This document shows positions 43,126-46,281 of a stretch of 64,000 nt of DNA, piece by piece. The DNA comes from Nitrospira sp. ND1 (GTDB lineage: Bacteria; Nitrospirota; Nitrospiria; Nitrospirales; Nitrospiraceae): positions 171,073-235,072 of the forward strand of contig NZ_FWEX01000005.1 in the NCBI RefSeq assembly GCF_900170025.1, written 5' to 3'. The position numbers were made by a program, and so were the translations under genes. The notes beneath the pieces are model-generated. The model ran no database searches. It had not been told where the DNA came from and saw only the letters and a program-made list of their open reading frames with translations. Positions within the stretch are counted from its first letter, which is position 1; each line of letters begins with the position of its first letter.

Positions 43126-43926
43126 CTAGCCCGGCTGCATCGCCTCCTTGAGGGATCGCACGAACGCACCCACTTCCTGAACGAGTCGGCCATCCTGCCC
43201 ATGCTCTCCAACACGACGCACAATTGCGCTGCCCACGATCACGCCATCGGCGACCTGAGCAACCCGCGCGGCATCCTCCGGAGTCGCCACGCCGAATCCC
43301 ACAGCCACCGGGGTCTTGGTGTGCTTTCTGATCTTGGCGACGTTCTCGCGTACGCCCGCCACGTCCTGTAGTTTAGCCCCAGTAATGCCCGTGATGGAAA
43401 CATAATAGACAAATCCGCCGGACTCCTTCGCCACATAGGCCCGCCTCGACGCAGTGCTGGTCGGAGCCAACAGAAAGATCAGATGGAGTCCGGCCTCACC
43501 AGCCGGACCACGCAACGGCCCCGCCTCATCCGGCGGCATATCCGGCACGATCAATCCATCTACACCCGCATCCGCAGCGATCCGGCAGAATTCCGCCTCA
43601 CCGAACGCGTGGATGTTGTTGTAATAGGCCATCAATACGATAGGGATCTGGGTCGAGGTCCGAAGATGCCGCACCGATTCCAGAATCCTTCGAAGCGACG
43701 TACCGCTTTGGAGACCACGCTCGGCTGCTTTCTGAATCACCGGTCCATCGGCGATGGGATCGGAAAAGGGCACCCCCAATTCGATGACGTCGGCGCCGGC
43801 CCGCTCCAATTCGAGCACCAACTGCTCCGTCTCCTGCAACGACGGGTCCCCCGCCATGATGTAGGTGATCAGCGCCTTCTCCCCCTTCGCCTTCAACTGC
43901 CCCAATGTGTGATCCAAACGATTCAT
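43126..43926 (-). CDS. trpA: Tryptophan synthase alpha chain
   Basis: Cleaves indole-3-glycerol phosphate to indole and glyceraldehyde 3-phosphate; indole passes to TrpB through a tunnel. The catalytic Glu and Asp are in DVIELGVPFSDPIADGPVIQ. The TIM-barrel phosphate site (VGFGVATPEDA, then VIVGSAIV) is intact. The ATG at 43926 is chosen because the frame upstream to 44007 crosses an inverted-repeat element and has no matching homology. Of 266 aa, typical. Last gene of the trp operon; the element at 43969-44091 separates it from trpB. Confidence 0.96.
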   Translation of the reverse strand: MNRLDHTLGQLKAKGEKALITYIMAGDPSLQETEQLVLELERAGADVIELGVPFSDPIADGPVIQKAAERGLQSGTSLRRILESVRHLRTSTQIPIVLMAYYNNIHAFGEAEFCRIAADAGVDGLIVPDMPPDEAGPLRGPAGEAGLHLIFLLAPTSTASRRAYVAKESGGFVYYVSITGITGAKLQDVAGVRENVAKIRKHTKTPVAVGFGVATPEDAARVAQVADGVIVGSAIVRRVGEHGQDGRLVQEVGAFVRSLKEAMQPG

Positions 43927-43968
43927 ATGGATATACCTATGCCTCTCGCTCGTCCTTCCAATCAATTG

Positions 43969-44091
43969 CAGGAGGTTCAAAACGGTCATCCAGCGCGGCC
44001 GCAGCAAGCGCGGAGGTGAGGCGTACTCCTGCAGTACGTCGAACCTGTGCGCGCCGCGAGAACAAAGCTGGAGGCCGTTCTCAACCTCCTG
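43969..44091. repeat. 123-bp element with 17-bp terminal inverted repeats
   Basis: Bounded by CAGGAGGTTCAAAACGG (43969-43985) and CCGTTCTCAACCTCCTG (44075-44091), which are inverted repeats matching at 15 of 17 positions. A perfect inner stem CGTACT/AGTACG with the loop CCTGC lies at 44022-44038, and further arms (CGCGGAGGT / ACCTGTGCGCG) are partly complementary. It begins at the base next to the trpB stop codon. It resembles a REP/BIME- or MITE-like palindromic unit. Confidence 0.75.
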
Positions 44092-45282
44092 CTACAGCGT
44101 CACGCCTTTGATTCTCGCCACCTGCTGCACATCCTTGTCGCCGCGCCCGGAAAGGTTCACGATCAGGATCTGGCTCTTCTTCATTGTGGGCGCGCACTTC
44201 ACCACTTCGGCGATGGCATGGGCGCTTTCCAGCGCGGGCATGATGCCCTCCTCCCGCGCGAGCAGATCGAACGCCTCCAACGCCTCGTCATCCGTGACCG
44301 ACGTATACTGGGCACGATTCGTTTCCTTGTAGTAGCTGTGCTCCGGCCCCACGGCCGCATAGTCCAAGCCTGCCGAGACGGAATGGGTGAGATTCACCTG
44401 ACCGTTCTCGTCCTGCAGCAGATAGGTCATGGTCCCTTGCAACACGCCGGGGCGACCGCCCGCAAACCGGGCCGCATGTTTGCCGCTCTCGACACCCAGC
44501 CCCCCAGCTTCCACTCCCACCATCCTGACCTTCTTATCCGGAACGAAAGCGTGGAACAGCCCCATCGCATTACTGCCGCCGCCGACACAGGCGATCAGAC
44601 AATCGGGCAGACGCCCTTCCGCGGCCAGAATCTGTTTGCGGGCTTCACGGCCGATGACGGACTGAAAATCCCGGATCATCATGGGATAGGGATGCGCGCC
44701 GAGGACGGAACCCAGCACATAGTGGGTCGTCCGCACGTTGGTCGTCCAATCCCGCATCGCTTCACTGATGGCGTCCTTCAACGTCCGGCTGCCGGCATCC
44801 ACGCCTGTGACCGTCGAACCCAGGAGCCGCATCCGGAACACATTCAGCGCCTGCCGCTGCATGTCTTCCGTGCCCATGTAGATTTCACATTCCAGGCCGA
44901 ACATGGCAGCCACGGTGGCCGTCGCCACGCCGTGCTGACCCGCGCCGGTCTCTGCAATGAGGCGCGGTTTCTTCATGCGCCGGGCGAGCAGCGCCTGCCC
45001 GATCGCATTGTTGATCTTATGGGCGCCGGTATGGCACAGGTCTTCGCGCTTGAGGTAAATCTTCGCGCCGCCCAATCGTTTCGTAAGGCGCTGGGCAAAA
45101 TACAGCGGCGTCGGCCGCCCGACATATTCTTTCAAATAGTGCTTGAGTTCGGCTTGAAACCCCTTATCCCGTCGTGTGCGTTGGTACACCTCTTCCAACT
45201 CCAGCAAGGCCGGCATGAGAGTTTCAGGGACATACCGTCCGCCGTAAGGGCCGAACCGCCCATGTCGATCTGGTATCGCCAT
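44092..45282 (-). CDS. trpB: Tryptophan synthase beta chain
   Basis: Condenses indole with serine using pyridoxal phosphate. The PLP lysine lies in [19 protein letters not shown], the phosphate-binding loop is [14 protein letters not shown] and the substrate region [17 protein letters not shown] is intact. Of 396 aa, TrpB1 type, as expected when trpA is adjacent. AAGGAATTCAC precedes the ATG. It lies 48 bp after trpF. Its stop codon abuts the inverted-repeat element. Confidence 0.97.
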
Positions 45283-45966: not shown

Positions 45967-46281
45967 TCAGCAGCTCTGCTTGCTCTTCTGCATGCCGTAG
46001 AACCCGCGATAGGACCACTGGCAGGCCTGCCCCTTGGCGTTGAAGGTCAGGCCGATCAAGTCCTGCCGCCCGTCCTGCTGGGGAACAGACCACTCGCACA
46101 CTTCGCCGCCGTCCTTGAACGAATGGCACTTCGTGGGGATGCCCATGTCCTTGATGCGGTCGTCTTTGCTGCTGCCCATCCAGGCATCCCACTTCGGGGA
46201 ATATTCATGGATCTCCTGATTCATACAACCGGCCAAGGTCAGCAACGCCGCCATCACACCGAGAGAAAGTCGCGTCTTCAT
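45967..46281 (-). CDS. Small lipoprotein embedded in the trp operon
   Basis: A 104-aa precursor with the signal LSLGVMAALLTLAGCMNQ (Cys19). The mature part (EIHEYSPKWDAWMGSSKDDR, then TKCHSFKDGGEVCEWSVPQQ and CQWSYRGFYGMQK) has three further cysteines in pairs plus a final one. No known domain, and no evident link with tryptophan synthesis. Its ATG overlaps the trpC stop by four bases (ATGA), and its stop lies four bases before trpF. This makes it a true operon member rather than an insertion with its own promoter. Confidence 0.85.
   Translation of the reverse strand: MKTRLSLGVMAALLTLAGCMNQEIHEYSPKWDAWMGSSKDDRIKDMGIPTKCHSFKDGGEVCEWSVPQQDGRQDLIGLTFNAKGQACQWSYRGFYGMQKSKQSC

Follow-up and report, generated by a model that had tools for sequence, protein, structure and literature searches.

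A MITE-family hairpin behind trpB in Nitrospira and its probable retention as an RNA element

The trpB-trpA junction

The window, by which we mean the whole 64-kb stretch (64,000 nucleotides) of Nitrospira sp. ND1 DNA that was analysed, carries the trp genes on its minus strand in the order trpD, trpC, a small ORF, trpF, trpB and trpA; the gene names were taken from ORF reading, and TrpB alone was also searched as a protein. The small ORF, which lies between trpC and trpF at 45967-46281, is 104 aa long and has a start that we take to be lipoprotein-like by motif. Between trpB and trpA an imperfect palindrome of 123 bp was read from the sequence at 43969-44091, exactly where the first-pass annotation had placed an inverted-repeat element. 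The features of the junction, with the evidence for each, are as follows:

44092-45282, minus strand: trpB (ORF list; TrpB protein search, positive in 28 of the 29 genus genomes)
44092-44095, minus strand: GTAG, made up of the trpB stop TAG (44094-44092) and one further base, at the position of the left duplication of complete copies
43969-44091, minus strand (trp sense): MITE hairpin core, short form (sequence, inverted-repeat detection, RNA fold, family members)
44075-44091, minus strand: left arm, counterpart of the left terminal repeat of complete copies, consensus CAGGMTGNNGAAAAA (inverted-repeat detection, family alignment)
44022-44038, minus strand: apical stem-loop with a 6-bp stem and a 5-nt loop (sequence, RNA fold)
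43969-43985, minus strand: inner right arm, the hairpin partner of the left arm and not a true transposon end (family comparison)
43927-43968, minus strand: 42-nt spacer from the element to trpA, without an outer right arm (sequence, arm scan)
43126-43926, minus strand: trpA, with its start codon (ATG) at 43926 (sequence, ORF list)

The first base of the element, 44091, directly follows the TAG stop of trpB, as had been noted before, and the trpA start given in the mechanical ORF list (44007) is false and falls inside the element. The two 17-bp arms are inverted copies of each other with 15 of 17 positions matched, and the same arms were also detected as an 18-nt pair at 89%; the inner stem-loop, which had been described as perfect, is so. 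For the sequence from 43965 to 44095, taken as RNA of the trp sense strand, the folding energy was -71.8 kcal/mol in comparison to -46.7 (sd 3.5) for shuffled sequences, i.e., a z score of -7.2, and none of the 200 shuffles was equally stable. The Rfam search of the 64-kb window returned a tRNA only and nothing at the trp element, and one weak terminator-like match was observed in the hairpin against 0.6 expected.

A dispersed family, its ends and its candidate partner

The trp element used as a blastn query gave 42 places in the ND1 genome (E<=10), while a covariance model built from 35 aligned copies gave 112 (E<=0.1), and because the same sequence recurs at all these places its ends are not a product of chance. 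After removal of 6 opposite-strand doubles, 11 weak places and 6 places below 53 bits (3 of them without sequence), 89 of the 112 model places were analysed. The genome thus holds about 90 copies, each 123 to about 200 bp long and too short for a transposase gene. Some of them are clustered: three tandem copies about 130 bp apart (C5:860846-861235, L090) belong to a group of eight within about 10 kb, and another five lie within 4.4 kb (C6:40109-44542, L089). Outside the ND1 genome, blastn matches were obtained in 35 of 41 genomes, comprising 11 of 16 others of the order and 24 of 25 of the genus, which bears out the earlier remark on similar sequence in other Nitrospira; the one genome of the genus with no blastn match to the element was G004. 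A scan of named genomes with the core pattern found at least 118 stretches, and the 80 that were listed all came from Nitrospira, Nitrospiraceae, Nitrospirales or Nitrospirae, while the plasmid collection gave three 28-base matches and nothing more. No description of this family was found among listings of open-access literature on Nitrospira MITEs, palindromes or repeats.

The complete copies are about 200 bp long with CAGGMTGNNGAAAAA ends, and in them the hairpin is followed by a tail and then by another right arm, whose sequence complements the left end. The first-pass annotation had taken the 123 bp as the whole unit and both 17-bp arms as its ends; the complete copies are about 76 bp longer with a second right-hand end, so that the left arm stands as a terminal repeat while the right arm is an inner copy. 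This outer right repeat was recognised in 15 of the 89 ND1 copies (at least 13 of 18 positions matched). Among 45 long copies from ND1 and other genomes, some of which are misregistered, the flanking 4-mers were identical in 19, in comparison to a mean of 9.7 and a maximum of 17 in 5000 shuffles; these were CTAG in 14 cases, TTAG in two, and CTAA, ATAG and GGAG in one each, so that 17 of 19 agree with YTAR and ATAG and GGAG fall outside it. An unoccupied site, the one site examined, was found in the sister genome G023, where GGTTATAGACCC stands against GGTTATAG-element-ATAGACCC in ND1, and both flank matches include the same four bases, ATAG, which occur there singly. The identical 4-mers and this empty site therefore indicate a 4-bp target duplication, and they also indicate that the occupied gene already ended in TAG prior to the insertion. 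Target-site duplications, to which the annotation had drawn attention, are accordingly present in complete copies, but none can be verified at the trp copy, where the right-hand 4 bp is not recognisable. With many dispersed gene-less copies, terminal inverted repeats in the long copies and a target-site duplication, the family is, by its sequence, a MITE family. Since the trp copy lacks both its true right end and the duplication, it is probably no longer able to move.

Candidate partner loci were collected through Pfam DUF772 and DDE_Tnp_1, and up to 30 loci for each were scanned for ends (for DDE_Tnp_1 in ND1, 2 of 6 loci were located for the end scan). Elements of 1.3 kb that begin and end with CAGGCTGCGGAAAAAC, each flanked left and right by CTAG or TTAG, were found twice in G001 and also in G019 and G023. 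The protein encoded in G001 has 363 aa and is an IS5-family transposase (NCBIfam NF033581, 285 bits against a cut-off of 140) that also carries both Pfam domains; the G023 copy has an in-frame stop codon and the G019 match ends before the C-terminus. Relatives were detected at E<=1e-20 in 9 of the 41 genomes; close relatives (>=86%) are limited to 3, and none was found in ND1. A complete MITE of G023 and the IS have 20 to 23 identical bases in common at the outer right end, the duplication included, and a left-end match of 19 nt (95%) or 18 nt (94%), with no other noteworthy match outside the ends. The family thus has ends in common with an IS5-family element and mostly the YTAR duplication described for IS5 (PMC10359306). 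Judging from these common ends and duplications, we infer that an IS5-family transposase likely moves the MITE in trans. Of the earlier proposal of mobilisation in trans, the part on a source holds in so far as a candidate with the same ends exists in three relatives, but no close relative was found in ND1 and the trp copy itself would hardly move.

Other candidates were rejected. None of 29 PF13358 (IS630) loci had these ends at its own borders, and the family copy near 6 of the 29 was taken as chance. IS701 elements have YTAG as their target, and PF13546 was found in 1 of 41 genomes. A pair of ends 4.2 kb apart in G023 turned out to belong to two distinct copies and not to one element, and the 35 exact end-pattern matches in ND1 included no inward-facing pair 0.5 to 4 kb apart. 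Four further loci with related transposases (L318, L325, L327 and L328) have the variant ends CAGTCTGCTGAAAAA, CAGTGTGTTGACAAAC and CAGGCTGTTGACAAAC and mostly NTAG-type flanks, which suggests further IS groups with the same type of target. The only Y1 transposase found in ND1 (L060, C5:725832-726155) is flanked by GGGGTCAGGTCTTGCAA-type inverted repeats that resemble the TIRYT motif GGGGWSAS given in PMC3733652.

A same-strand gene lies upstream of the left end in 59 of the 89 ND1 copies, and in 28 of these 59, based on gene calls from a simple purpose-written caller, its stop codon is the exact three bases before CAGG (TAG in 22, TAA in 4, TGA in 2); the upstream stop is within 5 nt of the model edge in 45 of the 59, and only 1 of the 89 copies overlaps a called gene. 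With open frames of at least 100 codons in place of the gene caller, an exact stop was found for 27 of 89 copies in ND1 and for 31 of 75 copies taken from other genomes. Nine genes face the far end of long copies, and the stop codon of 5 of them coincides with that end; 10 of 15 long copies have a stop exactly at one end. The excess is partly a matter of target choice, because stop codons already hold 57 of 276 YTAR sites lying outside genes or at stops, a rough count from the stretches around copies, against those 10 of 15.

Conservation and variation of the trp hairpin across the genus

The TrpB search yielded 29 trpB-trpA junctions, two of which come from G013, an assembly with 8% contamination. 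The hairpin was present at 19 junctions (including G006, where it has an 11-nt deletion), the hairpin with another repeat inside at 3, remnants at 3, and no element at 4 (G004, G007, G010 and G041). The last two groups indicate that the element is dispensable in some lineages. An empty trpB-trpA junction was among the things the annotation had suggested looking for; four junctions do lack the element, but a clean alignable pre-insertion site was found among them in no case, and the empty site described above belongs to another locus. In L133, L143 and L149, the trp junctions of G014, G012 and G017, a second repeat was inserted within the hairpin, and a piece similar to that repeat lies in ND1 near C6:3263480.

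Fifteen of the 19 hairpin junctions were compared, G013 (identical to ND1), G006, G018 and G024 (gapped or with another spacer) being omitted. The mean identity was 0.83 for the element in comparison to 0.64 for the spacer and 0.58 for the four-fold sites of trpB. Among the 105 pairs, the element was more conserved than the spacer in 104 and more than the four-fold sites in 101; it changes more slowly than either. For two lineages with the same hairpin type (A), identity jumps at the element borders: the final 100 nt of trpB are at 0.79, one half of the element is at 0.94 and the other at 0.91, and the 20 nt that follow are at 0.50. Orthologous copies elsewhere gave a mixed picture: in six pairs whose upstream genes are 88 to 94% identical the elements were 0.90 to 0.98 and the next 70 nt 0.59 to 0.96 identical, while in seven more diverged pairs the elements were at 0.69 to 0.81, the level of random copies.

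Two hairpin types occur at trp, which are about 0.72 alike in comparison to 0.76 for random copies of the family, and their distribution is discordant with the trpB tree. The two types being as unlike as random copies and discordant with the tree, replacement or recombination has taken place, and the paired changes which separate them count few events. The trp junction of G023 (L129) is a mosaic, with trpB like that of ND1 and the element, spacer and start of trpA like those of G016 and G042, suggesting that the junction has recombined. Pairing is kept in 95% of cells at trp and in 94% family-wide. At trp, pairing, the number of cells with double changes (42) and the covariation score exceeded all of 500 shuffles, while the number of pairs with double changes and the number of pair types were not above shuffles (101 and 206 of 500 reached them); the double changes mostly separate the two hairpin types. 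Family-wide, all five covariation measures were above every shuffle, for a structure that was derived from those same sequences. The comparison of types and their similarity to random copies weaken a reading of the paired trp changes as stepwise compensation.

Interpretation and relation to known systems

We consider it probable, at roughly 0.7, that the trp element is the retained hairpin core of an old MITE copy, from a family of the Nitrospirales, which has been kept as an RNA hairpin. According to this model a complete MITE would consist of a left repeat, the 123-bp hairpin, some 60 bp of tail and, last, the true right repeat, with the outer stem of the hairpin formed by the left repeat paired with the inner arm. 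Most likely served in trans by an IS5-family transposase, the MITE would insert mostly at YTAR, usually CTAG, with a 4-bp duplication, and as such sites are often TAG or TAA stops, a gene would retain its stop and gain a long hairpin right behind it. The insertion behind trpB would be old, its right end lost and its mobility probably gone, and the hairpin would be held by selection, most likely through the stability or processing of a trpB-trpA message, the two genes presumably being co-transcribed. Since the conservation has sharp borders, action in the trp message appears to be the most economical account that can be inferred, and a regulatory role would fit the conservation of the hairpin.

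The same junctions could also be read as a dead, functionless MITE copy that is still recognisable through replacement or recombination between lineages and not through selection, which we regard as unlikely. The recombined tract of G023 over element, spacer and trpA start, the discordance of the two hairpin types with the trpB tree, the remnants and losses at some junctions, and the diverged orthologous pairs elsewhere which do not rise above random copies would all agree with it. The type-A hairpins (0.91 to 0.94, in comparison to 0.79 for the end of trpB and 0.50 for the first 20 spacer nt) are, however, difficult to obtain by exchange, because homologous recombination should bring the flanks along, and the excess over four-fold sites in 101 of 105 pairs likewise speaks against this reading.

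Two other origins were weighed for the palindrome. As a native regulatory RNA of the trp operon (attenuator, terminator or riboswitch-like), unrelated to any mobile family, it would account for a strong hairpin within an operon and for the one weak terminator-like match, but that match stands against 0.6 expected, Rfam gave nothing in the window beyond a tRNA, and a mobile origin is shown by the roughly 90 copies scattered over the genome, by their target duplications and by the empty site; as an origin this is refuted, and we hold it to be very improbable overall. Even less credible is a REP-type (GTAG) palindrome moved by a Y1/RAYT enzyme. A palindrome behind genes with GTAG or NTAG on one side does recall REPs, which are described as lying mostly downstream of genes (PMC3733652), but the complete copies have 4-bp duplications and paired terminal repeats, the sole Y1 gene found in ND1 is surrounded by other repeats, and it is a DDE-type IS that has the same ends.

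Beyond the reading of the trp element as a retained MITE hairpin, we tentatively suggest a wider role, in which the family might serve as a delivery system for 3'-end hairpins: the choice of YTAR would place conserved RNA hairpins behind stops across the Nitrospirales, and copies such as that at trp may have been domesticated as operon punctuation, setting the ratio of the cistrons on either side or their stability. Members of Nitrospira are of importance as nitrifiers and are difficult to grow and manipulate. About 90 structured copies, often at stops, with one held in trp across much of the genus, offer a concrete and testable case in which transposon hairpins become intercistronic elements or elements of mRNA 3' ends. 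Annotation of the family is also advisable, since gene calling was misled at trpA by a false start inside the element.

Compared with known systems, the family is a further example of IS5-related MITEs: it has ends in common with an IS5-family element (NF033581), it is gene-less and present in many copies, and its 4-bp duplication is mostly YTAR, as is described for IS5 (PMC10359306). Unlike in that class, the inner arm pairs with the left end to form a 123-bp hairpin that outlasts decay of the right end, ATAG and GGAG duplications occur, and insertions are often exactly at stop codons. REPs with RAYT or TIRYT are likewise dispersed palindromes often found behind genes, but they are described as 20 to 40 bp long and moved by Y1 enzymes (PMC3733652), neither of which applies here. 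For RUP, a small repeat of Streptococcus pneumoniae, and IS630-Spn1, the IS partner was assigned by common ends and target, in the same way as here (PMC2229807), but the target is TA and the partner an IS630 element. The Correia/NEMIS elements of Neisseria are MITEs with an RNA stem-loop for which a part in directing RNase III processing of mRNA has been proposed; they differ in host and sequence and are described as TA-ended with 24-bp terminal repeats (PMC2229807). The ERIC sequences of enterobacteria are likewise intergenic palindromes, of about 127 bp, that are co-transcribed with their neighbours and have a proposed effect on mRNA stability (PMC2229807, PMC10969869); compared by description, they are TA-ended (PMC2229807), whereas the Nitrospira family has 4-bp duplications, an empty ATAG site in place of a TA dinucleotide duplication, and an IS5-like partner. 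ERIC and NEMIS, as described in these sources, are precedents for MITE hairpins that affect mRNA (PMC2229807, PMC10969869).
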